Source: Sphingobacteriaceae bacterium GW460-11-11-14-LB5 (GTDB lineage Bacteria > Bacteroidota > Bacteroidia > Sphingobacteriales > Sphingobacteriaceae). From it: 64,000 bases of DNA. Of the stretch, positions 25,559 through 54,230 are shown one piece after another; position 1 is the first letter of the stretch; each line of letters starts with the position of its first letter. The notes beneath the pieces were generated by a model that ran no database searches, was not told the DNA's origin, and was given only the letters and a program-made list of their open reading frames with translations. Location: positions 5,952,001 to 6,016,000 of the forward strand of contig CP021237.1 in NCBI GenBank assembly GCA_002151545.1, given 5' to 3'. The position numbers were made by a program, and so were the translations under genes.

Positions 25559-25574
25559 ACTAAAACGTTTAAGT
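25559..25574. promoter_or_regulatory. AAACGTTT palindrome, distal copy
   Basis: ACTAAAACGTTTAAGT: outer triplets ACT and AGT are inverted and the core AAACGTTT is perfect. The central CpG palindrome is the usual shape of LacI-family operators. It lies about 220 bp upstream of the proximal copy. Confidence 0.5.
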
Positions 25575-25779: not shown

Positions 25780-25809
25780 ATTAAAACGTTTTAGTATATT
25801 ATATATTTG
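25780..25809 (+). promoter_or_regulatory. Promoter box with AAACGTTT operator, proximal copy
   Basis: TAAAACGTTTTA is a perfect 12-bp palindrome (25782-25793) placed just upstream of TATATTTG (25802-25809), a match to the Bacteroidota -7 consensus TAnnTTTG. A protein bound to the palindrome would cover the -33 region, so repression by a LacI-type regulator is likely; the regulator is not identified. Confidence 0.55.
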
Positions 25810-25952: not shown

Positions 25953-28900
25953 ATGCGATACTTATGGGCGTGCCTTGTCTTTTTTGCCGCGTTTACGTTA
26001 AACGTTTTACCAGTTTTTTCGGCTGGCAAAAAATTGCATAAAGGCCTTACAACCAATCTTTTTGTTCTGCAGGATACGACTAAAATTAAGTACGTATCGC
26101 CAACAGACTCTTTAAGGAAAGACAGTTTAGAACAAATTAAACTCAAAACAATTTACAACAAATTGTCTGGAGGTGTACGGAAAGATGTTAAAGATCTTTC
26201 GCTGTTTCCTGCTATATCCTTACAGCAAAACCTGAAAGGAAATTATGCAGGTTTATACGTACAGGAACCATCCGGCGAACCCGGCTCAATCCAGAACATG
26301 ATTATCAGGGGCGCGGCGATGCCACTGCTGTCGAAGAAGGATTTATATGCCGTACAACCTTTGGTGGTATTGGATGGAATCCCCTTAATCGGTGAGCATC
26401 CTTTTGCCTTCGATATTCAGCAGTACGATTTTAACCGGATTGGTCCGGCCACTAACCTGCTTGCCGGAATTGATATCAATAACATTGCGTCTGTAGAGGT
26501 ATTGAGCGATTTGGCAGGATCATCCATTTACGGTCCAAGGGGGGTAAACGGTGTGATCGTATTGACTTCAAAAGCAGCTTCGGGCAATTCGAGGAGCATC
26601 AGCTTTAATTCCTATATCGGGATGGTGCAAAAGCCAACGGTAAATACCATTAATGGTAAATATGAAAACGAATTCAGACAGCGCTTCTATGATATTTATA
26701 CCACCAATGGCCGCTATTCTGATGATGAAGAATATCCTGTTTATTTGAGCGACTCGCTTAATAACGTATACAGTGGTAAATCGAACTGGACCGATTTGTA
26801 CTATAAAAACGCAATGATATATGGGATAAATTTTGGCCTGACCGGCGGATCGGACCGTGCGAATTTTAGATTTTCGTTAGGGAATGCAAAAAGCCAGAGT
26901 GTTGCCGATGGTACAGGTTTAGACCGCTACAGCGCCATGTTCAACATCAACATGCGGCCGGTTAAGTGGTTGCTTTTCTCTGCCATGATTAACGGTAACC
27001 GCTTAAACCGCGATAGGAACAGAACACTTAGGGACCGATTTGCACAGATTAATTACTTTCCTGATCTCAGTGCCCCACCTGCACCCAATAAAGATTATTA
27101 CGCCAGCTATTTAAACGAATACAGCAAAGGTTTTGATGACAATAAAACCAACCTGATACAGGGTTATGCCAAATTGGTGGCTACACTGGGCAAGGTTAAA
27201 TTATCGTCGGCTTTTAATGTAGATTATAATGAAGGTTACAGGGATATATTTTATGCCAGAACCTTATTGCAGGGCAATAGCTACGCTTCCAACTATTATG
27301 GCTTTAACCAACGGTTAATGATTGATAATAAAGCATCATACGACTTCAAGCTGAATAACGCGCATGATTTCCATGCAGAGCTGGGCCAGTCGATGATGTG
27401 GGATATTTATAAGTACAACTATGCATATGCTTATAAAGGAGCCAATGATTATATTAAAATTAACTTATTGGATTCTGATCCAAAATTGCCTAACGGTGCT
27501 GATAATCCCAATTACCTGGTGCCAAGGGCATTTCCGAGAGAACTTACCTATCGCTTTTTAGATAAAACAGCAGATAACCTGTTATCATTTTATGGTAAAG
27601 TAAACTACTCGTATAATGATAAGTATTTCTTATCCGGAACATTACGTTTAGATGGATCATCTAACGCGCAACCAAGCAAACGCTGGTTTTATTCTCCGGT
27701 AATCTCGGGAGCATGGAATGTTAAAAACGAATTGTTAAAGGATACCAAACTGGTTGATGATTTAGTTTTAAGGGCAAGTGTTGGCCGTTTAGGCAGAACA
27801 TTTACCTATGATAATTATGCCCAGGGACCACAGTATACCGCATCGGTTGGGTACACTGGTAATTTAACTGTACCCGGATACAACGCCTTCGGTGTGCTTA
27901 CCAGACCCTATTCGTTTGGCTGGGTAGGTTATGGCGTGCCATGGGCCTATTCAGATCAGTTAAATATCGGGGCTGATGTAGCCATGCTGAAAAACCGACT
28001 GCATGTTTCAGTCGATTTTTACACCAAGGCTGATAAAAACCAGTTGATCGGTATTCCATCATATGCAGAATATGGTTACAAACAATCTATAGAAAGCGGA
28101 ATGGATGTGAGCAATACCGGTGTCGATTTATCTATCCACGCATTGGTAATGGCTAAGCATAAATTCACATGGAATTCTTCATTAAATGTTAACCACAATA
28201 GCAACACCTTAAAAGCATTGCCAAGAGGTTTAAATGAAATTATCATCGGAAACAGGTTATTAAGGGTTGGCGAACCGGTAGATCAATACTGGTTGCTGGA
28301 AAATGAGGGCATTTATACTTCTACTTCGCAAGTTCCGGTAGTAAAAGGACAGCCATTAAAATATAACGGACAACCATTAAAAGCCGGCGATCCGAGGTGG
28401 AAAGACCAAAATGGGGATAATGTAATCGACGAAAAAGACAAGGTATTAAAAGGACATTCCTTGCCAACGCTTTCGGGTGGTTTTGATAATGCTTTTACCT
28501 ATGGCAACTGGAGCCTGAGCACCAATTTATACTTCAATTTGGGCAGGAAGCTGATTAACCAGGAAATGGCCAGCCGCTTCGACTTTGTTAACCGCGAAGG
28601 TAATACCGATGTAAGCTCAGTAAAAGAAATTACTTTTTGGGAGAAACGTGGCGATTATAGCAAATATCCGCTATACAATCCATGGAGTACCGTTATTCCT
28701 TACCGTTTAGACCAGGATCTTTTTCTTGAAAATGCCTCATTCCTTAAATTAAGATCGGTATCGGTAGGTTATGAGTTAGGTAATCTGTTGAAGAAAAGGA
28801 ATATAAAGATCAATAAATTCTTTGTTTACGGCGCGGTAAGCAATGTATTTGTCATCACACCATACACCGGACAAGATCCTGAACTGGTGAGCTACGATGG

Positions 28901-28967
28901 CATCGATACCGGCTATGGTCAGCCGATACCAAGAACATACACCTTAGGCGTTAAAATGGAATTATAA
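25953..28967 (+). CDS. SusC/RagA-type TonB-dependent transporter
   Basis: A 1004-aa outer-membrane transporter, first gene of the 18-kb operon. It has a signal peptide (to about residue 24), then an atypical N-terminal stretch of about 50 residues (KKLHKGLTTNLFVLQDTT ...) instead of the CarboxypepD-regulatory domain usual in SusC. The plug lies near 70-210 (NMIIRGAAMPLL, PLVVLDGIPLIG, VEVLSDLAGSSIYGPRGVNGVI). The barrel ends with YTLGVKMEL. It pairs with the SusD-like gene that follows at once. Ligand unknown; presumably an oligosaccharide or another large nutrient. Confidence 0.88.
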   Translation: MRYLWACLVFFAAFTLNVLPVFSAGKKLHKGLTTNLFVLQDTTKIKYVSPTDSLRKDSLEQIKLKTIYNKLSGGVRKDVKDLSLFPAISLQQNLKGNYAGLYVQEPSGEPGSIQNMIIRGAAMPLLSKKDLYAVQPLVVLDGIPLIGEHPFAFDIQQYDFNRIGPATNLLAGIDINNIASVEVLSDLAGSSIYGPRGVNGVIVLTSKAASGNSRSISFNSYIGMVQKPTVNTINGKYENEFRQRFYDIYTTNGRYSDDEEYPVYLSDSLNNVYSGKSNWTDLYYKNAMIYGINFGLTGGSDRANFRFSLGNAKSQSVADGTGLDRYSAMFNINMRPVKWLLFSAMINGNRLNRDRNRTLRDRFAQINYFPDLSAPPAPNKDYYASYLNEYSKGFDDNKTNLIQGYAKLVATLGKVKLSSAFNVDYNEGYRDIFYARTLLQGNSYASNYYGFNQRLMIDNKASYDFKLNNAHDFHAELGQSMMWDIYKYNYAYAYKGANDYIKINLLDSDPKLPNGADNPNYLVPRAFPRELTYRFLDKTADNLLSFYGKVNYSYNDKYFLSGTLRLDGSSNAQPSKRWFYSPVISGAWNVKNELLKDTKLVDDLVLRASVGRLGRTFTYDNYAQGPQYTASVGYTGNLTVPGYNAFGVLTRPYSFGWVGYGVPWAYSDQLNIGADVAMLKNRLHVSVDFYTKADKNQLIGIPSYAEYGYKQSIESGMDVSNTGVDLSIHALVMAKHKFTWNSSLNVNHNSNTLKALPRGLNEIIIGNRLLRVGEPVDQYWLLENEGIYTSTSQVPVVKGQPLKYNGQPLKAGDPRWKDQNGDNVIDEKDKVLKGHSLPTLSGGFDNAFTYGNWSLSTNLYFNLGRKLINQEMASRFDFVNREGNTDVSSVKEITFWEKRGDYSKYPLYNPWSTVIPYRLDQDLFLENASFLKLRSVSVGYELGNLLKKRNIKINKFFVYGAVSNVFVITPYTGQDPELVSYDGIDTGYGQPIPRTYTLGVKMEL

Positions 28968-29001
28968 TATGGAAATAGCTACTCAAAATACATCAATAAC
29001 G

Positions 29002-30516
29002 ATGAAAAATATATTATACGCATTTCTGCTTATTGTAATGGCTTTAACCGGCTGCAATAAAGCGTTAGAAACCGACTCGAGCAGGGTGGTGGGCGAAAAA
29101 AATATGTGGAATACGGTAGAAGATGCCCGTGCCGGAATTCTGGGGGTTTATGCCTTAACCAGAGCCGCACTATCTGACAACAACAGTCACTGGATTTATG
29201 GCGACGTAAGACCAGGTGAATTTACAAGTCCGAAGAGACAGGATTTAAAAGCGGTTATCAGCAACAACTTAAATGCATCTTATCCTGTGGTAGAGTCACT
29301 TTCTGATTGGACCAGGTTTTATGCCATTGTTAATGGTGCTAATGTTTTTCTGGAAAATATTGCGCACGTTAAAGCAACCGATAAACGCTACTCAGATAAT
29401 AACATGACGGTAGATATTGCGCAAGCCAGGTTTTTAAGGGCTTTTGCTTATTTCTACATGGTGCGCATCTGGGGTGATGTTCCTTTTATTATTTCATCAA
29501 ATGAAGGTGCTTTCGAAAATAAAGCCAGAGAAAAACAAGCCAAGGTTTTAGCCTGGGTAGAATCGGAAATATTAAGGGCCGCGGCCGATCTGCCCTATAT
29601 TTATAGTGGAAACGATATTCAGCAACCAGGCGATTATTATAATGAAGGCGGCGGAAGATGGGGGGGCGCTTTAGCGACTAAAGTTACCGCTTATGCTGTG
29701 CTATCGCATGTTGCTGCGTGGAATGCTGATTATGCTAACGTTGCCAAGTATACCAAATTTGTTGAAGATAATTATGGCAGAAGCGGCGGCGGTTTTACCT
29801 CCACTACCGATTTAAGCAACTCTAACGGTTTCTTTTACAATAAAAACAACCGACAGATGTTTGGCTTTAATTCAGATTATGGTCACATTGATGGTTCATC
29901 AACCGGGCATATTGAAGAATTAACCCTTGCAGAGCCCATTATTACCAAGTCGGTTCCTGATATCTATCTGCCAAAAGATTCGATCTTAAAATATTTCAAT
30001 TTACAGAAAGATGAAAGATTCTCTATCGATACATTGGGCCAATCGAAATTCGACAGGTATTTCACTAATTTAAATGGTAAATATCCAATTTTCAGTAAAA
30101 TCAAGGTTATTCAGGGTGGCGGTACCGATCCAAACTTCAGGTATTTTACCAGTGCGTTAATCTTTACCCGTTTAGAAGATATTGTACTGTTAAGGGCCGA
30201 AGCATTATCAGTTTTAGGTGATCAACAGGGTGCCATACTGGAATTAGTGCAGGTAATGAGCAGAAGGGTTACCTCGGGTACTACACTTTCTTTTAACCTG
30301 AGTAGCGACGATATTATTAAAATGATATTCGAAGAAAGACACCGCGAACTATTGGGAGAAGGGCATAGGTGGTACGACTTAATCAGATACAATAAAATTA
30401 AGCAGAACGATGCCAAATTTATGACCCTCATCAATTCGGGTGGGATCTACTGGCCGATATCGCGCAGGCTGATCGCTCAAAACAGTTTATTAACTCAGAA
30501 TCCTTACTGGCGCTAA
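29002..30516 (+). CDS. SusD/RagB-type nutrient-binding lipoprotein
   Basis: A surface lipoprotein of 504 aa from the ATG at 29002. An ATG at 28969 would add 11 residues before the signal and is less likely; from 29002 the lipobox ALTGC puts the Cys at 18. The TPR-like SusD fold is visible in ARFLRAFAYFYMVRIWGDVPFI near 135-156 and in the C-terminal RHRELLGEGHRWYDLIRYNK. It forms the lid of the SusC transporter encoded 34 bp upstream. Confidence 0.88.
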   Translation: MKNILYAFLLIVMALTGCNKALETDSSRVVGEKNMWNTVEDARAGILGVYALTRAALSDNNSHWIYGDVRPGEFTSPKRQDLKAVISNNLNASYPVVESLSDWTRFYAIVNGANVFLENIAHVKATDKRYSDNNMTVDIAQARFLRAFAYFYMVRIWGDVPFIISSNEGAFENKAREKQAKVLAWVESEILRAAADLPYIYSGNDIQQPGDYYNEGGGRWGGALATKVTAYAVLSHVAAWNADYANVAKYTKFVEDNYGRSGGGFTSTTDLSNSNGFFYNKNNRQMFGFNSDYGHIDGSSTGHIEELTLAEPIITKSVPDIYLPKDSILKYFNLQKDERFSIDTLGQSKFDRYFTNLNGKYPIFSKIKVIQGGGTDPNFRYFTSALIFTRLEDIVLLRAEALSVLGDQQGAILELVQVMSRRVTSGTTLSFNLSSDDIIKMIFEERHRELLGEGHRWYDLIRYNKIKQNDAKFMTLINSGGIYWPISRRLIAQNSLLTQNPYWR

Positions 30517-30527
30517 ATAATATTGAT

Positions 30528-31637
30528 ATGAAAAATTTTATAAAATATATTGGTGTGCTAACAATACTCTTGTTATTCACCATCATTTATTCGGCTTGTA
30601 AAAAAAATGGGGGCTATTACGATGTAGAAGATAGCGCTGCACCATTTAATGGAAACATATATGAATATTTAAAAAGTAAACCAGGGGTATACGACTCGTT
30701 AATTGTGGCGGTTGATAGAATGGGTTTGAAGAAAACGCTGACCGATAGTAATGTAACGCTTTTTGCGGTTACCAACCCTAGTTTTCAGTTGGCCTTAAGA
30801 AACTTAAATACCTTAAGAAAACAATCGGATAAGGACCCGCTGTTTTTATCGAATATTGATGGAATACAGTTGGATACCATGGTTTCTTACTACATCATCA
30901 GAGGCGTAAAACCTTCTGATTCTTTAAAACTGCAGGATGGACTTAATTTAACCAGTGTTAAAGTAGGTTATCCCATGCATGCCAAGTCGGTGCGGGGTTC
31001 TGCCTCGGGTGAGGTGGGTGCCGGACCCGAAGTGATTCAGTTTAGCAATACCAAAAAGAGCAAATTTATCAGAAACTGGTCTAGCAGTACCACTGCTTCA
31101 AACAACATCAAAACCAAAAATGGCATTGTGCATGTAATCAGTCCCGATCATATTTTCGGTTTCGATGGCTTTGTTACCCGCTTAACTTTTATTCCACCTC
31201 CGCCAAACTTAATGGTTACCGTGGGTGGTACCTTCTCAGCTAACCGCGAAAACGGTGGTGGACCAACTAGCGGGGAAAACTCTAAAAAAGTGATCGATGG
31301 GGATGATCATACCAAGTTTTTATGCGATTTGCAAGGGTTTTTAACCATGCAGTTTAAACTTAAAACGCCGGAGGTATCTTCTGTTTATACTTTAATATCG
31401 GCAAATGATGCAGTAGAAAGAGATCCGAAAGCCTGGACTTACGAAGGCTCGCAGGATGGTGTAAACTGGACCGAGTTACACCGGGTAAGCAACTTCTTTT
31501 TTGAAGAAAGGTATCAGCAAAAAGTTTTTAGGTGTACCAATACCGTTGCCTACCAGTACTACCGCATCAATATTACGGAGTTAAGAAGTGGAGGTACCTT
31601 CCAGCTTGCAGAATGGACTATAAACAAATCGAAATAG
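30528..31637 (+). CDS. Fasciclin plus discoidin (F5/8 type C-like) lipoprotein
   Basis: A 369-aa surface lipoprotein (lipobox IYSAC, Cys near 24). Residues about 38-210 form a fasciclin domain (IYEYLKSKPGVYDSLIVAVD, VTLFAVTNPSFQLAL). Residues about 230-369 form a discoidin-like beta-sandwich (NSKKVIDGDDHTKFLCDLQG, YTLISANDAVERDPKAWTYE, FQLAEWTINK), a fold that often binds carbohydrate. The C-terminal module is paralogous to that of the gene at 43113-43958. Probably helps capture the operon's ligand. It starts 11 bp after the SusD gene. Confidence 0.8.
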   Translation: MKNFIKYIGVLTILLLFTIIYSACKKNGGYYDVEDSAAPFNGNIYEYLKSKPGVYDSLIVAVDRMGLKKTLTDSNVTLFAVTNPSFQLALRNLNTLRKQSDKDPLFLSNIDGIQLDTMVSYYIIRGVKPSDSLKLQDGLNLTSVKVGYPMHAKSVRGSASGEVGAGPEVIQFSNTKKSKFIRNWSSSTTASNNIKTKNGIVHVISPDHIFGFDGFVTRLTFIPPPPNLMVTVGGTFSANRENGGGPTSGENSKKVIDGDDHTKFLCDLQGFLTMQFKLKTPEVSSVYTLISANDAVERDPKAWTYEGSQDGVNWTELHRVSNFFFEERYQQKVFRCTNTVAYQYYRINITELRSGGTFQLAEWTINKSK

Positions 31638-31674
31638 GGTGATGGGACATAGAAAAAATAAACTAACGAAACTT

Positions 31675-32763
31675 ATGAAGTCAATCGTAAAAATAGAAAT
31701 GGTTGTGGTTTTGTTTGCATTAATCGCTTTTAGCGGATGCAAAAAACTGTACGACCTGCCTGAAGAAAAAGATTACCTAAGTAATAATGTAAACTTTAGC
31801 AATAAAGTATTTGAACCGATTATTGGCAGAACCAACTTAATGGGAGGTTTTAACGGCGATAATTCTACGCAACCCATCACCTTTGAAATTGTAAATGCAC
31901 GTTTTGGTGATGGTAAACCGGTTACCGATATTTTTCAGAAAGTACCCACTTACGTGTTCATTGCGCCATACACCGGCTTGGAAAAAAGTCTGGCAGAAAT
32001 AGAGGCTAAAAGAAAGATAGAAGTACACTCTTTATTCGAGATACGCTCGTCGGGAGAGTTTATCCTTTGGGGCTCATCTACTAACCAGTTAATCAAACCA
32101 AGACCAATTGATAGTACAAACTTCTCTCAGGATACCCGCTTTTTTGATGTGAAAATTAAAAATACTGGTGGCGAACGTTTAATCAGAGATTTACAGATCA
32201 GACCTTTCAGAGAAAGACCTTACGAGCCTTCTAACGATTTTAATGCTTACTCCGGTTTGCCTGCTCCCGATCCTAAATTTCCGCTGGATAAAAAGTTGAG
32301 GGATTATATCCGCCCATATCTAAATAATGTGGTTGGTGCGACAACAAACAAAAATCTGATCAGTAACAACGATCAGAAAGATGTAGTGGTATATATCCGT
32401 CCGTTTACAGGCGGTAATGGTCACTCGCTCCGCATTAAAGCCTTAAATAAGGATTCAGTTGAAATTAATCCTTCTTCCTTTAACGAAACCGTTTGGGATA
32501 AAATGATTCATGGTTTTAACATGCAGAAAACGGATAAATACGTTCAGTATGATGTGGCTTATCCCATTCCATTGGTAGAAATTCCAACTTTTTATGCGCC
32601 GGGAGGATCGAGAGCGAAAGCACAGTTGAGTTACTCCAGGGGGGCTTTTGGTGGTGGCCGTATCATTGCCAATTTCGGGGTCGATTTTGCCATTTACCAG
32701 GCCGGAGATTGGGAAATTGTATTTCACTTCAAAACAGATAATCCAAAGTTTATCAGCGAATAG
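31675..32763 (+). CDS. DUF5007-like lipoprotein
   Basis: The start at 31675 gives a clean lipoprotein signal (MKSIVKIEMVVVLFALIAFSGCKK, Cys at 22; 362 aa); upstream starts at 31639 and 31642 add a basic extension. The mature start LYDLPEEKDYLSNNVNFSNKVFEPIIGRTNLMG matches the DUF5007 pattern seen in Bacteroidota SusCD operons. The remainder is beta-rich. Function unknown; its place between two SusCD pairs suggests a surface glycan-binding or structural role. Confidence 0.7.
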   Translation: MKSIVKIEMVVVLFALIAFSGCKKLYDLPEEKDYLSNNVNFSNKVFEPIIGRTNLMGGFNGDNSTQPITFEIVNARFGDGKPVTDIFQKVPTYVFIAPYTGLEKSLAEIEAKRKIEVHSLFEIRSSGEFILWGSSTNQLIKPRPIDSTNFSQDTRFFDVKIKNTGGERLIRDLQIRPFRERPYEPSNDFNAYSGLPAPDPKFPLDKKLRDYIRPYLNNVVGATTNKNLISNNDQKDVVVYIRPFTGGNGHSLRIKALNKDSVEINPSSFNETVWDKMIHGFNMQKTDKYVQYDVAYPIPLVEIPTFYAPGGSRAKAQLSYSRGAFGGGRIIANFGVDFAIYQAGDWEIVFHFKTDNPKFISE

Positions 32764-32781
32764 GCAATATTTAAAGCTAAT

Positions 32782-35700
32782 ATGATGAAAAGAAATATAC
32801 TTTTTTATACATTACTTGTGGTGTGTATAATGCTTGGCACCAGTGCTTTTTCGCAGGAGAAATTTAACCTTGTGAATGGTACCGTTGTTGATAAAGAAAC
32901 AAAACAAGGCGTTCCGGGTGTATCTATTATTTTAGAAAGCACCAATAAAGGATTAACGCAAACCAACGGCAGCGGAAAATTTTCAGTTAACGTACCCGAG
33001 GGTTCTACTTTAATATTCAAGTTTATTGGTTACAATACACAGCGTGTAAAAATTACCAATCAGAATAATATTACCGTAACCATTTCTGAAGACCGCAAAG
33101 AGCTGGATCAGATTGTTATTGTGGCCTACCAGAAAAGGTCTAAACAAACCACTACAGGATCTTCTGTTTTAATTCAGGCCAAAGAGGTTCAGGATATTCC
33201 GGTTTCTAACGTTGAGCAACTTTTACAGGGTAAAGTACCGGGATTAAACATTCAGAACAATACCGGAGCGCCAGGTTTCAGGGGTTCGGTGCAAGTTCGT
33301 GGTTTATCCAGTTTAAGTATCTCGGGCAGCGGTAACGAATCATTTTTGCAGCCAACTTCACCGCTTTATATTATTGATGGTGTGCCCTTAGATGCGGATA
33401 AAGCTGCAGAGTTTGGTTTTCAGAGCCAGGGACCGGGTGTGAGTCCGCTTTCATTAATCCCTCAGGAAGATATCGAAGACATCCAGATTTTAAAAGATGC
33501 GCAGGCAACCTCTATGTATGGTTCGCGGGGTGCATACGGGGTAATTATCATCACCACCAAAAGAGGTAACTCTAAAGTTCCGAGAATTAGATATGTATCC
33601 AATTTCTTCGTTAAAACTCCACCAAAACTTCGCGAAACTTTAGGTGGTAATTCGGAAAGATCATTAAAAATCCAGCAGATTATTTTAAATGCTTCCAATG
33701 TGGACGATATCAGGCGGATTTCCAATACTTCATTCCTGGCCGATAGTTTAAATGCTTATTGGAACAACTCTACCGATTGGCAGGATGTATTTTTTCAAAA
33801 TACCTACAACCAGAGTCATAACCTGGCTTTAGATGGCGGCGATCCTCGATTTAACTATAAAGCCAACTTAGGATATTATACCGAAAAAGGGGTAATCAAA
33901 AACACTGGTTATAATCGTTACAACCTCAATATGAACATGGAGTTTAAACCAAACGATAAATTTAGATTTTTTGGTTTTATTAACGGTTCGGTAGGAAAGC
34001 AAAACAAAGGAAATGGTGTAGGTTTATTACAATCGGGGGTAGCTGCAAATGGTCAGGTATCTACCTTATTGCCGCCACCATCTTTTTATCAGGCATCAGG
34101 AGGGGTTTTATCGGCATTACAAACATTAAACGATAACAATTCCAGAAACTTAAGAACTAACGTAGAAGCACGTTACGAGTTTATTCCAGGTTTGGCTGTA
34201 TCATCTACTTTAAGTTACGATTATACTTCCGATACCGAATCTACCTTTACGCCGGCGGCGGCAAATGGGCAGTTTGCTAAGGTATACGATTATGTAGGCA
34301 GAAATTTCCAGTTGTACAATAGAAATGGGATTACCTACGCCAAAACCTTTGGCGAAAAACACAGTCTTTTTGTAAACACCTTTAACGAAATTTACAAACA
34401 GGGCGCTCAGGCTGGTATTACCCGCCAGGAAAGAACACCTAACGATCAGTTACAGGGGCCATTGGGTTACGATGCCTACTACTCGCGTGGTGGAGGGGTA
34501 TTGTCTAACTATAAAAACGCAACCATTGCATCATTTGCAGGTTCGGTATCCTACGATTATGATAAAAAATATGTAGCCGAATTTTCTTACCGTTTAGATG
34601 GTACCTCATCCAGCGGATTGGAAAATCCATATTCTAAAAACCCTTCCATTGGTTTAAGGTGGAACTTTAATAAAGAGAACTGGCTGGCCGATATGAAATG
34701 GTTATCGTACGGAAGTTTGAGGTTAACCTGGGGACAAAATATTGTGCCAACGGGTAATCTCCAAAGTATTTATGGTATTTATAACCTGAACAATAACTTT
34801 AACAATAACCCAACCATTGGAATCGATTATGATATTATTCCAAATCCTAACTTAAAACCAACCACAACAAGTCAGTACAACTTAGGTTTCGATTTAGGGT
34901 TATTTAACGATAAAATCTCTGTAAACTTCGATACCTATTTTAAAAAGGTTGATAATTTATTGTTCGACAGGCTTTTATCGAATACGACCGGATTTAATAA
35001 ACTGGCGAGTAACGATTTAGGTATTGCCAATTACGGATCGGAGATCATGATTACTGTGAGACCTGTTGCGAGCAAAGATTTTGATGTATCGGTTTCTGTA
35101 AATGGTGCACTTAACCGCGATGTGCTGTTAAAACTTCCGGCAGAATATAACGGGCAGTTCATCAAATTTGATGGTTCCGGTTACCTGCAACACAACGTTT
35201 ACCGCGTAGGTAGAAACACACTATCTAACTATTTAAGAATCAATCAGGGCGTTTACCAAACCGATGCTGATGTGCCAACCGACCCTGTAACGGGTAAGCG
35301 CTATCAATCTAACGGGCAGTTTTTCTTAGGAGGTGATCCGATTATGAAAGATGTAAACGGAGATTATATTTTAGATGGCCGCGATTACGAAGTTACCGGT
35401 AATTCCCAGCCTTTAATCACAGGTGGTCTGTCAACCAATATCAGGTATAAAAAATGGGGCTTAAATGTTTATGCCACTTACACGGCCGACAGAACCATTT
35501 TAAATAATGCCCTGGCCGACAGGATAGCCATTATGCGCGATCCCTATTCATTAAAATCGGTGGTGCCATTAAACGACCTTAACATCTGGACCAAACCAGG
35601 GGATATTGCAAAATACCCATATCCGTATGATTACAAAAGGTTTGATCAGATCCAGCCATTAAGGGCCGACCAAACACTTTGGCAGGAAAGCGGAACCTAT

Positions 35701-35934: not shown

Positions 35935-35945
35935 TAGATATTATT

Positions 35946-37469
35946 ATGAAAAAGTTTATCATTTATTCTTTGATTTTAGCAGCATCGTTTTCATTGCCTG
36001 CTTGTAAAAAGTTTCTGGATATCCAACCTTTAGATAAGTTATCAGGAAATAACTTCTTCCAATCTAAAGAAGATGTAGAAGCCAATATTTACGATTTATC
36101 GCGTATTGTTTTCGGTAAGTTTAACGAAACGCATTTTATAGGCGCAACAGGCGAATACCGCTCTGGCGAAGTATTATACGAAAGCCAGTCTGATTTAGCA
36201 CCAGCCCGCGAGTTTGTCGAAATTTTAGGTAAAAACAACCTGTTAGGTTTATTATCAGGCGGTCGCCCATGGGATTTTTACAACTTCAACAGAATTACCG
36301 ATTGGACCGATTATTACCGTGCGATACAAGGTGCCAACATTCTAATTGCGAAGCTGGACGAAGGTGTACCCGGACTTAGCGATGTGCAGAAAAACCAGTA
36401 TAAAGCTGAGGCTGCATTTATCCGTTCGCTAAGTTATTTTATCATGGTCAGGTTATATGGCGATGTGGTGTATTATACCGATGCTTTCCACTCTACAGCT
36501 TTGCCTCGCGAAAATTTTGTTTCCGTATTAAACAAATGTATAGCTGATCTTAAAACCTATAAAAATCAAATTCCATGGACCTATACCGACCCATCTTTAA
36601 AAGGAGTAAGGGCCAGCCGCGGGAGCATCATTGCCTTAATTATGGAAATGAACATGTGGAATGCGGGTTTTGATGCCAACAATTCGAAAAAATATTATCA
36701 GGAAACTGCCGATTTAGGTCGCGAAATGATTGCCAGCGGTGCATACAGGTTATTGCCGATTACAGAATGGGCTACCGTAATTAAAGGAAGATCAGACGAG
36801 AGTTTGTTCGAGTTTTACCGCAGTATAAACTACGGCGATCAAAATACCAACACTGCGCCTGTGGCCGATATGTTTTTGCATTATCCATACAAAAGGCCAG
36901 AATATACCCACCGGGTAAGTTTTGCTTATTTCAGAGGAGAATACATGCAGAAAATTTTTCAGGATGGTAGCGATAAGCGAATTACCACCTGGTTTAACGA
37001 AGATATTTATGCCGATAATGGAAAATTTATGATGTTAAAATTTGCGCAGAATTCTTTCTCAACCGGTGAAGAAGATGCCAACCCTGATAACACATTCATG
37101 ATTTTCAGGTATGGTGGCGAAATTTTACTCGCCGCAGAAGCACTTGCCGATTTAGGAGAAGACGCCGAAGCCACTAAGCTGGTGAATATGGTAAGAGACA
37201 GGGCGCAGGCATCAAGATATGCTGGTGGGGGTGGCTCTACCCTAAAGGATTTTATTTTTTACGAAAGATCCAGAGAATTAATTGGCGAAGGGCACCATTA
37301 TTTCGATTTGGTGCGTACCAAAAGAATTTTAAGCAGCCAATGGTCGTACAACGTACTTACTTCAGATAAATTTAGCCGTGGCGCATGGACCTGGCCAATA
37401 AACGGAAATGCTTTAAATAACAATCCATTTATGCGGTTAAACGATTATTGGGTTAATGGTGGTAATTAA
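35946..37469 (+). CDS. SusD/RagB-type nutrient-binding lipoprotein, second copy
   Basis: A 507-aa lipoprotein with lipobox LPAC (Cys near 20) followed by KKFLDIQPLDKL, the classical SusD opening. The TPR-like core shows EAAFIRSLSYFIMVRLYGDVVY near 155-176, and the C-terminus has FIFYERSRELIGEGHHYFDLVR. It pairs with the SusC gene 11 bp upstream. The ligand is unknown, presumably an oligosaccharide shared with the first pair. Confidence 0.9.
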   Translation: MKKFIIYSLILAASFSLPACKKFLDIQPLDKLSGNNFFQSKEDVEANIYDLSRIVFGKFNETHFIGATGEYRSGEVLYESQSDLAPAREFVEILGKNNLLGLLSGGRPWDFYNFNRITDWTDYYRAIQGANILIAKLDEGVPGLSDVQKNQYKAEAAFIRSLSYFIMVRLYGDVVYYTDAFHSTALPRENFVSVLNKCIADLKTYKNQIPWTYTDPSLKGVRASRGSIIALIMEMNMWNAGFDANNSKKYYQETADLGREMIASGAYRLLPITEWATVIKGRSDESLFEFYRSINYGDQNTNTAPVADMFLHYPYKRPEYTHRVSFAYFRGEYMQKIFQDGSDKRITTWFNEDIYADNGKFMMLKFAQNSFSTGEEDANPDNTFMIFRYGGEILLAAEALADLGEDAEATKLVNMVRDRAQASRYAGGGGSTLKDFIFYERSRELIGEGHHYFDLVRTKRILSSQWSYNVLTSDKFSRGAWTWPINGNALNNNPFMRLNDYWVNGGN

Positions 37470-37493
37470 TTTTAAATAGAAATTATACAAGAT

Positions 37494-38246
37494 ATGAAAA
37501 AGCTAATTATTGCATGTGCAGCACTTTTACTTGTTTTAAATGCCTGTAAGCGTGATGAGTATTATATAGATGGAGGGAAGGCGAAGGCAGAATTTGATGG
37601 GAACATGATGCAGTATCTTCAGGCCAAAAAAGTGCCTTTTGATACAGTGGCCCAAATTGTAAAACTGGCTGGGATGGAACAACAGTTCAGTTCGGAGAAT
37701 TTCACCTTTTTTGCTTTTGATGATGATGTAGTGCGGAGAACAATCGGCAATATCCACACCAACGAAAGAGATAGAAACCCAAAGTTCGAATCCTTAAACC
37801 AATTACTTTATGAATCGGGAAGAGATACCGTAAAAACCCTCGATCAGATCAGTCCGGCCGTTTGGCGTAAATACCTGCAACGTTATATGTTTAAAGGTGT
37901 AAACATGTTAAAAGATTATCCGCAGATCGATCTGAACTTAAGAAGTATTTACCCTGGCGCCCTACACTACGATTATAACAATGATGTAGCCAACATTGGG
38001 GTCGTTTTTTACGATGCCAACGGAATTAAATACATCGGTTACAGGCAGCTTGTGCTCTCTTATATCCCCGATGTATCAAAACCGAACGATAACTGGTACC
38101 CCAATTATGTTGCATCATCTGATATTAAACCCACCAACGGAATGGTACACTCGTTAAGATACCAGGGTGCTTACCTCGGTTTCAATTTATATGAGTTTTT
38201 TAATGATGTATATAACACTGGTTTAACACCAAGTAATAATAATTAG
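37494..38246 (+). CDS. Fasciclin-like lipoprotein
   Basis: A 250-aa lipoprotein (lipobox LNAC, Cys at 18). The mature part resembles the fasciclin domain of the gene at 30528 (DGNMMQYLQAKKVPFDTVAQIVKLAG, FTFFAFDDDVVRR, then SDIKPTNGMVHSLRY) but lacks the discoidin module. Fasciclin modules mediate adhesion or ligand contacts; here it likely is a surface accessory of the second SusCD pair. Confidence 0.75.
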   Translation: MKKLIIACAALLLVLNACKRDEYYIDGGKAKAEFDGNMMQYLQAKKVPFDTVAQIVKLAGMEQQFSSENFTFFAFDDDVVRRTIGNIHTNERDRNPKFESLNQLLYESGRDTVKTLDQISPAVWRKYLQRYMFKGVNMLKDYPQIDLNLRSIYPGALHYDYNNDVANIGVVFYDANGIKYIGYRQLVLSYIPDVSKPNDNWYPNYVASSDIKPTNGMVHSLRYQGAYLGFNLYEFFNDVYNTGLTPSNNN

Positions 38247-38274
38247 CCTGTTATAATTTTAAAAGAATAGAATC

Positions 38275-39894
38275 ATGAAAAAAATAAAATACATGCTAAT
38301 CGTATTTTTTCTATGCTCCTTAGTTATACAGGGATGTAAGAAAGAAGAAGAATTAGGCGAAGATCCATATGCAGATGGGAAGGCTCCACTGGGTATCAGC
38401 ATTAGCCAAACTTTATTACCGGTTCCGGCAGAAGGGATTGTAGGTACTACCGTAACCGTACAGGCCAAAGGTTTACTGCCTTTTAAAGATAAATTAACGT
38501 TTATGTTCAACGGCGAAAAAGCAGAAGTGCTTAGCGTTACCGAATCGGCTATCGTGGTGAAGGTTCCCGATGCCGGAAGTACAGGGATCACCTCCATTGC
38601 TATTGGCGATCAGCTGATTTTAGGTCCGCAGTTTACGGTATCAGGCCTGATAAAAAACGACATCACCTTTAAGGCAACAGCCGGAACAAATGGTTATGTG
38701 AGTCAGTTTTACGAAATGATTGATGGCAGGGCACTGGTACTTGGCAGTTTTACCAATTATGATAATAAAGGATTAATTACACCGATTAACAGAATTGCCA
38801 GAACCTCTTTAGATGGCGATTACGACCGTACTTTCAGAACAGGCAGGGGCGCAAATGGCTCGCTATCAAGAGTAATCGAAATTGGCGGACGTTTCATCAT
38901 CGCCGGTGGCTTTAGTGGCTATAACCAGCGTACAGAGCACATCAGCAATATAACCAGTTTATATCCTAATGGCGCTATTGATACCATTAAAATCCAAACC
39001 AAGCGGAAACCAACCTTAACCGATACGGTTACCCAAAAATGGTTTCCTAAATTTAATGGTGGTACCAACGAATACATTAGCCGCATTTACCCGCATCAGG
39101 GCAAAATTCTGGCAACAGGTAATTTCAGGTATTACGTAAAAAGAACTTACGATAAAGACAATTACGATTTTACCAGAGATACCGTAATTCTGGATAGTAC
39201 CGAAATCCGCCAGATTTTAAGGTTCAATTTAGATGGTTCTCTAGATAAAACCTATCGTTTTAATACCGCAACCAATAAAGGTAATGTGAGTGCAAATGGC
39301 CCTATTGATACCTATATGCATACCGATGCCGCCAACCTTGAAAAGTTAATGGTGTTTGGAAACTTCAGCACCTTCGATGATCAGCCTGCAGTACGTATTT
39401 TAAGGTTAAATGCCAATGGCACTAAAGATGCAAGCTTTAACCCAGGTAGTGGGGTAGATAACGCGATAACATCACTTACCTATAATGCCACCACCAGAAA
39501 ATACCTGATTACTGGCGCATTTACAAAGTACAATGGTAAACCTGTATACGGAATGGCCCTAATTAATGAAGATGGCAGTCTGGATGAATCTTTCACCGCT
39601 AAATTCTTCGAAGGCGGTTACCCTTATTTTGCCCGCCAGCTTTCAGGAGGATTAATTGTAGTAAGCGGTGGTTTTAAAAAGTACAACAACGTAACCAGAA
39701 ACGGTTTTATGGTGCTTACCCCTGCAGGACTGCTTGCGCCGGGATATAATGCTACCGGACCATTTTCGGGAGGCCTTTCTGATGTGATTGAAACGAAATC
39801 TGCAGACGGCAAAAAAGCACTGTTATTAATCGGAGGTTTTAACCGCTTTGATAACCAACCTTTTTATAACATCGTTAGGGTAACGATCGAATAA
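38275..39894 (+). CDS. Lipoprotein with IPT/TIG domain and delta-60 beta-propeller (DUF5008-like)
   Basis: A 539-aa lipoprotein (lipobox VIQGC, Cys near 21). An IPT/TIG-like Ig domain lies near 38-125 (GISISQTLLPVPAEGIVGTT). From about 135 to the end, repeats of the DUF5122/delta-60 type are visible: a strand ending with G(D/S)LDxxF-like phrases such as NLDGSLDKTYRF, NANGTKDASFNPGSGVDNAI and NEDGSLDESF, each about 50 residues. This architecture matches the DUF5008-type surface proteins of Bacteroidota PULs. Probably a surface glycan-binding protein of the operon. Confidence 0.72.
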   Translation: MKKIKYMLIVFFLCSLVIQGCKKEEELGEDPYADGKAPLGISISQTLLPVPAEGIVGTTVTVQAKGLLPFKDKLTFMFNGEKAEVLSVTESAIVVKVPDAGSTGITSIAIGDQLILGPQFTVSGLIKNDITFKATAGTNGYVSQFYEMIDGRALVLGSFTNYDNKGLITPINRIARTSLDGDYDRTFRTGRGANGSLSRVIEIGGRFIIAGGFSGYNQRTEHISNITSLYPNGAIDTIKIQTKRKPTLTDTVTQKWFPKFNGGTNEYISRIYPHQGKILATGNFRYYVKRTYDKDNYDFTRDTVILDSTEIRQILRFNLDGSLDKTYRFNTATNKGNVSANGPIDTYMHTDAANLEKLMVFGNFSTFDDQPAVRILRLNANGTKDASFNPGSGVDNAITSLTYNATTRKYLITGAFTKYNGKPVYGMALINEDGSLDESFTAKFFEGGYPYFARQLSGGLIVVSGGFKKYNNVTRNGFMVLTPAGLLAPGYNATGPFSGGLSDVIETKSADGKKALLLIGGFNRFDNQPFYNIVRVTIE

Positions 39895-39921
39895 CCAGAA
39901 GCCAATTAAATATAAATTAAG

Positions 39922-41625
39922 ATGAGCATGACGAAAAAATATAAATTGCTGCTGGCTTTAATGGCCACCGTAATTACAACAGCCATATTTTCCTGCAATA
40001 AAGATTTCGATAGAAAACTTGTAGATAAAGACGGTACCGATACCACAAAAGTAAGATACGGAAGCCGTAAGATTTTATACCTGGTGGTTGATGGAGCAAG
40101 GGGACAATCGGTAGCGGCAGCTAATATTCCAAATATTACGGCGCTTTTACCACATTCCGTTTACAGTTGGGTGAGCTTAAATGAACCCGAAGCTACACAG
40201 AATGCCAGCAACTGGGCGAGTATGTTAACCGGAGTGAAAAAGGCGAAACACCTGGTAAATGATGATAACCTGAGTAATAATAACCTGCAGAATTACCCGG
40301 TCATCTTTAAAAGAATTAAAGAGAGCAGACCACAGACCAAAATTGTGGCACATACCCCATCTCCGGTTTTTAAATCATTAACAACAGGTGCAGATATCAG
40401 CACTTTGGCCACCAACGATGATCAGGTTAAAGCTTCGGTAATTAACGATTTAAATACCGATACCGCTTCAGTAATTTTAGGCCACTTTACCGATGTGGAT
40501 AAAGCCGGCGCACAATATGGTTACGATAATTCGTTCCCGAACTATAAATCGGCAATAGAAAAATTCGATACCGGAGTGGGCGAGATGATGGCTGCATTAA
40601 AAAAACGTCCTAATTATGTTAACGAAGACTGGCTGGTTATTATCGCCTCTAGTGATGGTGGTGCATTTACCCTTCCACCCAATACCGACGATCAAACCAT
40701 TTTTAGCAAACCGGCAAATAATGCTTTTATCATTTACTATAGCGCCAGTTATAATAAACGAATCCTGGTAAAGCCTTTTACAGGTAACCGGTATTTGGGT
40801 AAAACCGTAAAAATGACTGGTACAGCCATTAGGGCTGAAGTGGCCAGCGAAGATGCAGGTGTTTACAATATAGATGATACCACCAAAATGACCATCGAGC
40901 TTAAAGTTAAAAAGAACCGGGAGCAGATTTCATATCCGAGTATTTTAGGTAAAAGAAACGAATGGTCTAGTGGTCACCCGAGTGTGGGTTGGGTTATTTA
41001 TTTAGAAGACCGTTACTGGTATTTCGAATGGAGGGGTACAAAAGATGGCGATTACCGTCAATGCAGAGGTGCTGATATCGTTCAGGGCAGATGGGAAAAT
41101 CTTTCGGTTAAATTAGAACAACGCGGTAACCAAAGGTTTATCAGAACTTATACCAACGGAAAATTTAACAACGAGTTAGAAATTACCGGATCGGGTTCTT
41201 TAGCTAATTCGAATGCATTGAAACTGGGTTATTTAAATGGCCAGGGCCATGGAGAGCCTGATTATTACGTAACCGACATCCGTTTCTTTAAACTAGCTGT
41301 TCCGGATGGTGTAATTGAGCAATACTCTTGCGAAACATCAATCGATCAGAGCCACCCTTCATACAACTTCCTGGTTGGCTATTGGCCGGCAACTGATGGC
41401 AATGGCGATAAGATGATTGATCTTTCTTCACAGGCCCGCGATTTTAAATTGCAGGGACCATACGTTTGGGAAAATTTTAACGATTTAATCTGTCCGCCTT
41501 CAACCAGCTCCTTAGCGCTCCTGGTTCCGCAAACCACTGATATACCCGCACAAATGGTGAACTGGTTAAAAATTGCCAATAACCAGCGATGGGCGCTTGA
41601 TGGCAGGGTTTGGTTAGACCAATAA
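39922..41625 (+). CDS. Degenerate phosphodiesterase-fold lipoprotein with LamG-like domain (DUF4983)
   Basis: A 567-aa lipoprotein (lipobox IFSC). Residues about 45-280 resemble type I phosphodiesterase/alkaline-phosphatase-fold proteins: ILYLVVDGARG with the first metal Asp, NASNWASMLTG where active members have the Thr/Ser nucleophile loop, HFTDVDKAGAQYGYD where DxxGH is expected, and VIIASSDGGAF where the canonical SDHG His is replaced by Gly. The missing His ligands suggest a non-catalytic binding protein. Residues about 300-470 form a LamG/concanavalin-like sandwich (NLSVKLEQRGNQRFIRTYTNG), typical of DUF4983 proteins. Confidence 0.7.
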   Translation: MSMTKKYKLLLALMATVITTAIFSCNKDFDRKLVDKDGTDTTKVRYGSRKILYLVVDGARGQSVAAANIPNITALLPHSVYSWVSLNEPEATQNASNWASMLTGVKKAKHLVNDDNLSNNNLQNYPVIFKRIKESRPQTKIVAHTPSPVFKSLTTGADISTLATNDDQVKASVINDLNTDTASVILGHFTDVDKAGAQYGYDNSFPNYKSAIEKFDTGVGEMMAALKKRPNYVNEDWLVIIASSDGGAFTLPPNTDDQTIFSKPANNAFIIYYSASYNKRILVKPFTGNRYLGKTVKMTGTAIRAEVASEDAGVYNIDDTTKMTIELKVKKNREQISYPSILGKRNEWSSGHPSVGWVIYLEDRYWYFEWRGTKDGDYRQCRGADIVQGRWENLSVKLEQRGNQRFIRTYTNGKFNNELEITGSGSLANSNALKLGYLNGQGHGEPDYYVTDIRFFKLAVPDGVIEQYSCETSIDQSHPSYNFLVGYWPATDGNGDKMIDLSSQARDFKLQGPYVWENFNDLICPPSTSSLALLVPQTTDIPAQMVNWLKIANNQRWALDGRVWLDQ

Positions 41626-41654
41626 ACAAGAATATGATCATTTAAATATCGAAC

Positions 41655-43100
41655 ATGAAAAAAATTATATACACCGTATTAATGGGTTTGACAATCATGA
41701 TTGTTGCCTATTCTTGTAAAGAATCTCAAATAGATGATTTGGATCTACCGCCTTCGGCAAGCAGAAGTATTACCGGCGAAGGAATTGTTGTGGGCAATGT
41801 ATCAATAGATAACCAGTTTGTTAAAGTTCCCTTCAAAATTTCCCTTTCTGGAACTGCGGAAGAAGCTTTTCAGGTAGGCTTAACCCTAAATAACGATACG
41901 GTAACGCAATTAATCAATAATGGTGGTTTAACCAATGCGGTGCTCATGCCTTCCGCTGCGGTAGAATATCCAAACGTAATTAATGTGTCGTATGGAACAG
42001 ATAATGCCGAAGGAGTGGCCATTGTTCGCCGCTCGGTATTGGAGCGTTATTTTGGTAAAAAAGTGGTTTTTGCCTTAAAACTTTCAGCACCAGGTAAAGG
42101 CAATAAAATTGCCAATGGTAAATCGAATATCCTGGTGATCATCAACACCGAAGAATTATTAAAATCTACCGATATCCATTTTTTAAGTTTTCAGGGTGGA
42201 GGGATTTATAACGTAACTCAGGGACCTAACTATCAGGTAGGACCTGCTGGGGTTATTATCCCCCTCATTATCAGTCTCGATAATGCACCTTCAACAGCCT
42301 TTAATGTGAAAATCAGGGATAATGTAGATACTATTGCCACCCTGGTATCAAGCGGGGTATTGCCGGCAAATGCGATTCACCTGGCGGCTAAAGATTTTAC
42401 TATCGATACTTTGGTGAGATTTAATACCGGTGCAACGAATGCCATAGTGAGGTTATCTATTCCATGGCCGGTATTCGATGCAAATATTGTGGCCAATAAA
42501 AAATTCGCCTTTGCCTTAAGCTTGAGCGATAATACCAATCATGTTATCCATCCTACAAAAGGAAAAGTAATTGTGGTGGTTGATCCAAGTGTAAACCTGG
42601 ATAACAACTCGCCAATTATTGGAAATGGAACAGGTTTGATTGCCAAATATTACACCAATACACAACTGGCACCAGACGACGGGCGCGAGCCTTTTGCAAC
42701 CCGGGTAGATGGTACGATCGAATTCTCGGGCGATGGCTGGCCGGATAATGTAAAAAATACTGCCGGCGCTTCTTTGAGCAGGGATAACTTCGCTACCAAA
42801 TGGGTGGGCGAGTTCCTGGCACCGGTAAGGGGCGACTATATTTTCTATCAAACCCGTTGGGATGATGGATCGAGACTATTTATCAACGGAAAAGCCATTA
42901 TCGACGATTATACCACACAGTGGGATAAACCAGAACGAAAAGCAACCATTCGTTTAGAACGTGGTATCAGATATAAAATTGAAGCACATCACCGCGAAAA
43001 TGTTGGCGGACAACAGGCATATCTCGAATATGAAGTTCCATCAGCAGGTATAACCGGTAAACGTGCCGTACCAAGAACACAATTATTTCCAACTCCTTAA
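41655..43100 (+). CDS. Lipoprotein with two DUF1735-like domains and a PA14 domain
   Basis: A 481-aa lipoprotein (lipobox VAYSC, Cys near 21). Two consecutive Ig-like BT_3987/DUF1735-type domains cover about 45-170 and 175-312 (VKVPFKISLSGTAEEAFQVG; VIIPLIISLDNAPSTAFNVK). Residues about 325-481 form a PA14 domain (GLIAKYYTNTQLAPDD, FATKWVGEFLAPVRGDYIFY, GSRLFINGKAIIDDY), a carbohydrate-binding beta-barrel. It is most likely a surface glycan-binding protein of the operon. Confidence 0.78.
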   Translation: MKKIIYTVLMGLTIMIVAYSCKESQIDDLDLPPSASRSITGEGIVVGNVSIDNQFVKVPFKISLSGTAEEAFQVGLTLNNDTVTQLINNGGLTNAVLMPSAAVEYPNVINVSYGTDNAEGVAIVRRSVLERYFGKKVVFALKLSAPGKGNKIANGKSNILVIINTEELLKSTDIHFLSFQGGGIYNVTQGPNYQVGPAGVIIPLIISLDNAPSTAFNVKIRDNVDTIATLVSSGVLPANAIHLAAKDFTIDTLVRFNTGATNAIVRLSIPWPVFDANIVANKKFAFALSLSDNTNHVIHPTKGKVIVVVDPSVNLDNNSPIIGNGTGLIAKYYTNTQLAPDDGREPFATRVDGTIEFSGDGWPDNVKNTAGASLSRDNFATKWVGEFLAPVRGDYIFYQTRWDDGSRLFINGKAIIDDYTTQWDKPERKATIRLERGIRYKIEAHHRENVGGQQAYLEYEVPSAGITGKRAVPRTQLFPTP

Positions 43101-43112
43101 ACTTGAATAGAT

Positions 43113-43958
43113 ATGAAAAGTAATATGAAAAGATTATTGGGTACATGCTCACTCTTACTACTCATTGTAATGTTAACCGTGAAATGTAAAAAAAGCGAAA
43201 ACGTAGAGATTGTTCCGGAAGTAGAAGAACCAAAGCCTACAGCTGGTTTTACCTTTGTAAAACCCGACACCTTAAAATTTTTAGAGTACCAGTTTACCGG
43301 AAGTTCTACAAATTATAAAAGTTTATTGTGGCAGTTTGGCGATGACAGTACCTCTGTTGCCGTAAACCCGAAACATACTTACCGTTTCCCGGGAAAATAT
43401 AAGGTAACCTTAACAACCAGAAATGGCCAGGGCTATACCGCTGCCAAAGAAGTCGTGCTTAATGTGGTCGATCCGACGATAAATTACTCCATTTGTGGCG
43501 AAAATTACATGAAAACCATTGGCGGTAAATTTTCAGTTAACCTGGAGGCTGGTGCAGGAGCAGATTCTGGCGAAGGCTCCAAAAAACTCGTCGATCAGGA
43601 TATCAATACGAAATTCTTACAGGCCGGTTTCGATGGTACGCAAAAATGTACCTTCGAATTAAATACCCCACAGGTGGTAGGTGCTTATACCCTAACTTCG
43701 GGTAATGATGCTGCAGACCGCGATCCAAGATTCTGGATTTTGCAAGGTTCTTTAGACGGTATCCAGTATACCGATTTACATACGGTAACAGTATGCCCCT
43801 GGGAGAATACAAACGATGGTCCGAGTAGGAAACAGACTAAACTTTTCCACTTCGATAATTACATTGCTTACAAATTTTACCGTCTTTACATTAAATCGAA
43901 TAGAGGAAGCCGCGTGTTTCAACTGGCCGAGTGGACCATCAACAAAAAACAACCTTAG
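43113..43958 (+). CDS. PKD plus discoidin-like lipoprotein
   Basis: A 281-aa lipoprotein; Cys of the lipobox MLTVKC near residue 25. Residues about 42-125 are a PKD domain (AGFTFVKPDTLKFLEYQFTG, WQFGDDSTSVAVNPKHTYRFPGKYKVTL). Residues about 140-281 form a discoidin-like module strongly similar to the C-terminus of the gene at 30528 (GSKKLVDQDINTKFLQAGFDG, YTLTSGNDAADRDPRFWILQ, FQLAEWTINKKQ). It is the last gene of the operon and is followed by a strong terminator. Confidence 0.8.
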   Translation: MKSNMKRLLGTCSLLLLIVMLTVKCKKSENVEIVPEVEEPKPTAGFTFVKPDTLKFLEYQFTGSSTNYKSLLWQFGDDSTSVAVNPKHTYRFPGKYKVTLTTRNGQGYTAAKEVVLNVVDPTINYSICGENYMKTIGGKFSVNLEAGAGADSGEGSKKLVDQDINTKFLQAGFDGTQKCTFELNTPQVVGAYTLTSGNDAADRDPRFWILQGSLDGIQYTDLHTVTVCPWENTNDGPSRKQTKLFHFDNYIAYKFYRLYIKSNRGSRVFQLAEWTINKKQP

Positions 43959-44082: not shown

Positions 44083-44113
44083 TATATTTTATACATTAGT
44101 AAAACGTTTAACT
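44083..44113 (+). promoter_or_regulatory. Promoter region with AAACGTTT operator
   Basis: AGTAAAACGTTTAACT (44098-44113) is a near-perfect palindrome with the same AAACGTTT core as the two sites before the SusCD operon. It follows a TATATTTT (44083-44090), a poor match to the -7 box. It suggests that the glutaminase-family gene shares a LacI-type regulator with the operon. Confidence 0.5.
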
Positions 44114-50810: not shown

Positions 50811-50845
50811 AAAATACCCTTAAAAACGAGCTCATTTTTAGCCGT
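50803..50845 (+). terminator. Terminator overlapping the end of the lacI-type gene
   Basis: ACGGCTAAAAA (includes the stop codon) and TTTTTAGCCGT are inverted repeats of 11-12 bp around a short loop. The stem forms in both orientations, with T-rich sequence after it. Confidence 0.65.
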
Positions 50846-54216: not shown

Positions 54217-54230
54217 TAGAAGAAAATAAA

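Follow-up and report, generated by a model that had tools for sequence, protein, structure and literature searches.

A SusCD operon without an intact catalytic domain and its possible place in a dispersed, LacI-controlled alpha-mannoside system of a Sphingobacteriaceae bacterium

The closest described systems to the one reported here are the polysaccharide utilization loci (PULs), or SusCD 'utilisomes', of Bacteroidota. Our subject is a putative operon of eleven genes at positions 25953-43958 of a 64,000-nucleotide stretch (the window; positions 5,952,001 to 6,016,000 of contig CP021237.1) from Sphingobacteriaceae bacterium GW460-11-11-14-LB5, a soil bacterium treated here as a Pedobacter, whose genome assembly is a single contig of 6.18 Mb. 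Like those loci, it joins SusC/SusD pairs and putative lipoproteins with binding-type domains in a tight gene array; unlike typical PULs, it has two SusCD pairs, seven non-enzymatic putative lipoproteins and no surface endo-enzyme, and no adjacent regulator is tied to it, the LacI-family gene at 49797 heading a starch locus. Judged by the usual PUL hallmark, an enzyme within the operon, there is none among the eleven genes; a gene of the GtaA 'glutaminase' family, probably encoding a glycosidase, follows 206 bp after the last open reading frame (ORF) with a palindrome of its own.

Also alike, by description only, is Bacteroides thetaiotaomicron BT3013-BT3015, a SusCD locus presented by its source as being without carbohydrate-active enzymes (CAZymes) (PMC11992087). 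A further likeness is to what we call the M60-type cassette, which occurs in congeners and in four other copies in this genome (p1-p4) and has the identical nine core genes in the identical order; in that type, slots 10 and 11 are occupied by an M60-family gene and another pseudo-phosphodiesterase gene, in the window by DUF1735/PA14 and PKD-F5/8 genes. The B. thetaiotaomicron arabinogalactan locus BT0262-90 (PMC3243724) probably belongs with the M60 type: the promoter of its SusC gene BT0268 is described as arabinogalactan-responsive (PMC6874557, PMC5061871), and BT0269-75 and BT0277-79 are listed as SusD, DUF5007, 'carbohydrate-binding' and 'alkaline phosphatase family' products (PMC10434189). 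The resemblance is drawn from the annotation in those papers. We presume BT0277 to be the third M60 protein. A published description of the cassette was not found in the literature searched, which lacks most subscription journals.

The reading that we favor, at somewhat better than even confidence, is that the operon would handle capture and import at the outer membrane for an alpha-mannoside system that is dispersed over the genome, under LacI control and perhaps directed at glycoproteins. The lipoproteins would sit on the cell surface around both transporters and bind a ligand carrying alpha-mannose. This would most likely be a glycoprotein or glycopeptide (of N-glycan or mannoprotein type), and the SusD lids would deliver it through SusC. 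A LacI-family regulator, with a candidate 1.9 Mb away at genome positions 4097716-4098720, would switch the operon, the neighboring GtaA gene and a dispersed set comprising glycoside hydrolase (GH) family GH92 genes, GH95, a second GtaA, additional SusCD pairs, a ROK kinase and two BSP-family metallopeptidases. Trimming and digestion of the ligand would fall to the products of this set. On this view the operon would serve as the outer-membrane half of a polysaccharide utilization system with its enzymes relocated to distant parts of the genome. GH92 enzymes are exo-alpha-mannosidases. Common LacI control is suggested because the palindrome is shared and conserved, and a protein part in the ligand because BSP-family peptidases lie in the presumably co-regulated locus and an M60 family in the sister cassette.

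Gene products of the operon

The eleven ORFs are intact, co-directional and on the plus strand of the 18-kb stretch, with intergenic gaps of 1, 11, 1, 18, 11, 24, 28, 27, 29 and 12 bp. NCBIfam and Pfam searches identified two adjacent SusC/SusD pairs and seven putative lipoproteins, in the order SusC1-SusD1-fasciclin/F5/8-DUF5007-SusC2-SusD2-250 aa-DUF5008/propeller-phosphodiesterase-like/DUF4983-DUF1735/PA14-PKD/F5/8. A lipobox-like cysteine, judged by eye, lies near the N-terminus of all seven and of both SusDs. Other than the phosphodiesterase-like protein, no member of a hydrolase, lyase, sulfatase or peptidase family was found by these searches among the eleven proteins.

That protein (39922..41625), a putative lipoprotein combining a pseudo-phosphodiesterase, LamG (under the cut-off) and DUF4983 (PF16356), matches PF01663 at 48.7 bits against a cut-off of 23. 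Its active site was compared by alignment with L207, an own-genome relative from the superfamily, at the columns taken to be nucleophile and metal ligands. N stands in place of T in the nucleophile column and A in place of H in the GH column, and the D-H pair has become S-D; two Asp ligands are retained, and three of the five metal-ligand positions examined (all but the C-terminal sixth) are changed. The loss extends to other cassette sequences: in all 26 (22 from the phosphodiesterase slot, window included, and four second copies) the nucleophile column lacks T or S and the GH-histidine column lacks H, with the four second copies retaining the last His. No PDB sequence matched the window protein at E <= 1. 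In slot 10 (DUF1735-like, or BT_3987-like_N, plus PA14; 41655..43100; PF07691, with PF08522 under cut-off) there was no PF13402 hit and no HExxH. As far as its sequence tells, the operon is thus without an intact catalytic domain, and ORFs, gaps, family searches and active-site columns together confirm the initial annotation, which had described just such an eleven-gene set. DUF1735 itself has been proposed to be a membrane-bound spacer for binding or catalytic modules (PMC11216935).

Both transporters match TIGR04056 and are TonB-dependent; SusC1 (25953..28967; 444 bits) comes without the N-terminal carboxypeptidase-like domain (Pfam gives Plug only) and SusC2 (32782..35934; 694 bits) with it. 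The putative lipoproteins SusD1 (28969..30516) and SusD2 (35946..37469) both match PF07980; their nearest solved chains are 3hdx (E 1.6e-131) and 3iv0 (E 5.5e-93), the latter presumably BT0273. Two of the remaining putative lipoproteins bear F5/8 (discoidin) modules: the fasciclin protein (30528..31637; PF02469, with PF00754 just under the Pfam cut-off), whose F5/8 part has 7nsn, a GH92 alpha-1,2-mannosidase, as its sole solved match at E <= 1 (E 3.2e-29), and the PKD protein in variable slot 11 (43113..43958; PF18911, PF00754), whose F5/8 part is 47% identical to the former and likewise has 7nsn as best solved match (E 8.4e-23).

The DUF5007 protein (31639..32763; PF16398, 207 bits) is modeled as a confident beta-sandwich (predicted local distance difference test, pLDDT, 89.7). 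Foldseek gave zero matches to it at E <= 0.001, and its sequence met only chance-like hits in the PDB. The best match in a second structural look was the SusE-like surface binding protein 4ak1 (Z 9.0, 93 residues, root-mean-square deviation 2.2), spanning residues 44-191 only and followed by rows at Z 7.2-7.8 that include unrelated proteins; no catalytic family was among the matches listed, which is not an exclusion. The 250-aa protein (37494..38246; no Pfam hit) is labeled 'FAS1b' by position, and a DUF5008 (TIG-like) protein with a DUF5122 beta-propeller (38275..39894; PF16400, PF17164) precedes the pseudo-phosphodiesterase. PADLOC had no hit for the DUF5007 and propeller proteins.

As for control elements, there is no regulator gene between 23879 and 46639, no Rfam match at gathering score was obtained for a riboswitch or other known RNA in 20000-52000, and sigma-70 style promoters stood at shuffle level (59 found vs 57.9). 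A SulP-type transporter gene (named by eye; 23879-25414) lies upstream of the operon, as it does in the maps of most close congeners.

A shared palindrome, GH92 and GtaA

What appears to connect the operon with enzymes is a LacI-type palindrome, TAAAACGTTTWA. Its strict form occurs in the window only at the operon start and before GtaA: at 25561..25572 (plus strand; TAAAACGTTTAA, conserved) and 25782..25793 (TAAAACGTTTTA) in the upstream DNA, both putative LacI-family operators, at 25998..26009 (TTAAACGTTTTA), 45 bp inside SusC1 in the signal-peptide region, and at 44100..44111 (plus strand; TAAAACGTTTAA), about 62 bp upstream of GtaA. All ten close congeneric loci keep two or three of the three start sites as well as the GtaA site, and the kept sites rank in the 94th-99th percentile of conservation among 12-mers, in a region averaging 77% identity. 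Seven other congeneric loci lack the palindrome, as do the own-genome copies p1-p3, where upstream DNA was seen.

The whole genome holds 23 distinct sites (36 rows on two strands; 4 + 5 for the reversed control), seven of which fall at 4086131-4097661 inside a distant minus-strand locus, 4074158-4098720. That locus encodes the candidate LacI, SusC/SusD, a second GtaA (GtaA-2, 56% identical to GtaA), GH92, a ROK kinase, another SusC/SusD (both pairs identified by BLAST), two HExxH-containing BSP-family peptidases, another GH92 and a 3-keto-disaccharide hydrolase-family protein. Elsewhere, sites lie just upstream of GH92 genes at 2447013, 5406204 (with a GH29 gene just upstream and a GH2 gene just downstream) and 2049005 (divergent to GH95), at the start of the GH92 gene at 270501, before SusCD at 235338, and between LacI and SusCD near 1785109.

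For four of the seven own-genome GH92 genes, the 1,600 bp ahead of the catalytic domain contain a site, where 0.006 would be expected for each (binomial P 4e-8, using the genome's site density), and two more of these genes lie in presumed operons headed by sites. Among congeners, GH92 genes had upstream sites in 5 of 6 cases in G009, 4 of 9 in G027 and 4 of 8 in G011; G013, which has no DUF5007 cassette and background palindrome numbers, gave 0 of 6. Genomes G001 and G020 are omitted from this test, their palindrome lists being incomplete. The candidate LacI has orthologues at 89-100% in the five operator-rich congeners searched, and a best match of 57-60% or none in G013, G019, G002, G035 and G026. 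Those genomes having GtaA-2 among the ones with the candidate LacI (G000, G011, G020, G027) all have it adjoining GH92; G013 and G019 have a single GtaA, not near GH92. The LacI loci of G009 and G001 contain no GtaA-2, and an operator lies there a short way upstream of GH92 (distance checked in G009). One GH92 domain match in G009 (G009:C1:3864292-3865721) runs in two frames, possibly a frameshift.

The initial annotation had suggested a capture machine for a ligand processed elsewhere, and the palindrome lends this support by pointing to the GH92-rich set and GtaA. Its more particular suggestion of processing by the downstream glutaminase-family protein holds up in part: GtaA (44165..46639, plus strand; a six-hairpin protein) shares the palindrome and carries all three domains of its family (PF16335 at 457 bits, PF17168 and PF16334), but the glutaminase label is doubtful because a Streptomyces homologue was reported to have weak beta-galactosidase activity and no glutaminase activity (PMC9668830). 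Since a fungal relative was moreover labeled by a glycosidase probe (PMC9668830), a glycosidase role seems likelier, and GtaA is probably a glycoside hydrolase. Its structure model is of low confidence (pLDDT 52.2), and searches returned nothing in PDB sequences at 0.01 and, with the GtaA profile, a chance-like hit only.

The cassette in relatives

Named relatives were taken as the best 80 of 272 loci, at least 49% identical to the window SusD2, and are thus biased to the window type; the absence of M60 from all 80 cannot be extended to relatives at large, and L131 does not show its slot 10. The nine core genes occur in order in 79 of them (L131 counts eight of nine because an antisense ORF over SusD2 was kept by the ORF caller), the nearest being in Pedobacter psychrodurus, with SusC2 and SusD2 99% identical. 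The same core, from SusC1 to the pseudo-phosphodiesterase, appears in the maps of 17 congeneric loci and of four other loci of this genome. After it, the window type continues with a DUF1735/PA14-type gene in 78 of the 80 named loci, a PKD-F5/8-type gene in 77 and both in 76, some of the DUF1735/PA14-type proteins being short and without PA14.

Of 17 further congeneric loci, 16 are of the M60 type, as are L194, L195 and the own-genome copies p1-p4 (p4 taken from the profile set and an M60 search). HExxH...E is present in 21 of the 22 M60 genes and absent in p1, whose M60-family protein (L065:4653-6710) is thus pseudo-peptidase-like; a GH35 gene lies two genes further on. A GH95 type is represented by L191 and by G009b, which has DUF5013-GH43-GH95 and which G001b resembles by size. 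Copy p2 is followed (L067:8624-16834) by a VKOR, peptidase C39 and thioredoxin protein, a small protein with a Gly-Gly-type leader and transport-like genes, possibly for peptide export. A four-gene set of SusC, SusD, fasciclin-like and DUF5007-like genes (L082; own genome 4598000-4617999, minus strand) may represent a simpler precursor of the double cassette.

In a tree of SusC2 and SusD2 (57 rows, by a quick method with a long outgroup, leaving the root fork and several inner forks unsure), 37 of 39 window-type rows fell in one clade with SH-aLRT 100, the M60 type standing apart; this placement indicates that the enzyme-free form is stable rather than the product of recent loss. With two Chitinophaga rows placed away from the others, what was labeled type A requires two changes on this tree; the support for type B is 72. 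In a phylum-wide sample, with at most three candidates scored per genome and Bacteroides poorly represented, the SusD2 profile reached E <= 1e-40 in 24 of 395 genomes and more than 600 bits only in G000, G060 and G414.

Enzymes conserved beside the cassette in relatives would have spoken against a pure capture operon, and they are present to a degree. A co-directional GtaA follows in 29 of the 80 named loci, its adjacency amounting to three changes over the tree. GH92 lies downstream in seven (six directly, L150 after two ORFs; four assigned by Pfam and three by 88% identity), and the four GH92 rows on the tree need four separate changes. GH95 lies beside two, L144 and, weakly, L145. Many other loci have no related gene within reach. 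With M60 in slot 10 of the sister cassette as well, enzymes thus seem to come and go beside a constant core. In the window, GtaA is followed by dinB and then a complete starch-type locus (49797-63860: LacI, SusC, SusD, SusE, GH13, GH65, GH13) from which the strict palindrome is absent.

Candidate ligands and what they would mean

Several results weigh against a LacI-controlled alpha-mannoside system. The own-genome GH92 gene at 1658290 has no site, a direct site is missing for five of nine GH92 genes in G027 and four of eight in G011, and the control genome G019, which lacks the cassette and has palindromes at background numbers, still has one GH92 of five with a site (P 0.005). Nor is the palindrome found at the distant same-type cassettes G026a, G002a, G015a, G035a and G014a (392 bp seen), so the regulatory wiring is not universal; two of these cassettes also have GtaA. 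LacI and operator are paired by co-occurrence only, in a genome with other LacI genes. A GH32 gene, a poor fit to mannosides, also has a site 24 bp ahead of it, and the remaining sites are in or near genes without evident link, some inside unrelated genes. In the window, the palindrome with two mismatches is not enriched (10 found vs 11.3 expected) and the exact 10-mer only weakly (5 vs 1.6; 6 of 100 shuffles reach 5). The adjacency of GtaA in the ten close congeners is not independent evidence, since dinB and the starch locus have kept their places there as well, and F5/8 modules are found in many enzymes.

The chief rival ligand is an arabinogalactan-protein; here the capture target would be this or another O-glycosylated plant wall protein, and the palindrome would mark a broad LacI network saying little about the sugar. 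BT0262-90 seems, by annotation, to carry a related cassette, and arabinogalactan is also hinted at by the GH35 gene with p1 and by GH43 and GH95 in G009b; but the M60-type kin p1-p3 lack the palindrome, and it is GH92, not arabinogalactan enzymes, that recurs beside and with the window type. We consider this reading rather unlikely. Protein-free alpha-mannan, such as fungal wall mannan, is an unlikely ligand too, by a similar judgment if a shade more doubtful: GH92 and the F5/8 links are compatible with any alpha-mannoside, but a protein part is suggested by the BSP-family peptidases and the M60 genes. M60-like proteins include mucin O-glycopeptidases (PMC11992087, PMC3267712).

That the ligand is not a glycan at all, as the initial annotation allowed, finds no support. 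Fasciclin, PKD and discoidin modules are present and RagAB-type SusCD pairs import peptides (PMC11992087), as an adhesion or peptide-uptake system would have it; yet the operon and glycosidase genes have the palindrome in common, and GH92, GH95 or GtaA lies beside the cassette in some relatives, so this reading appears improbable. More improbable still is an accessory of the starch locus under the LacI at 49797: that locus lies 5 kb downstream and holds this position in most close congeners with a contig long enough to show it, but the strict palindrome is absent from it, it has SusCDE and enzymes of its own, and in the maps seen of other genera and distant Pedobacter it does not adjoin the cassette. 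Decay of a system that recently lost its surface enzyme, to which the sister lineage's slot-10 peptidase-family gene might point, deserves next to no credence, given that all eleven ORFs are intact and that the enzyme-free form is old and widespread, on the tree and core counts above.

Building on the alpha-mannoside reading, we offer as a tentative and rather doubtful extension that the double-SusCD lineage may be a long-lived one without a surface enzyme. A constant nine-part receptor, dead phosphodiesterase-LamG included, would capture large, largely intact mannosylated glycoproteins for digestion by the dispersed LacI regulon, with slots 10-12 as interchangeable specificity or enzyme positions (M60, PA14/PKD-F5/8, GtaA, GH92, GH95).

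Loci of this kind usually have their function predicted from the enzymes encoded next to SusCD. In the present case the enzymes lie elsewhere, it is a regulatory motif that appears to connect the transporter with them, and a locus-based prediction would miss the link. If the proposal is true, it would supply testable ligands for the DUF5007, DUF5008 and DUF4983 lipoproteins, give the dead phosphodiesterase a conserved place, and offer a context for the mis-named GtaA family, as glycosidases that act with GH92.

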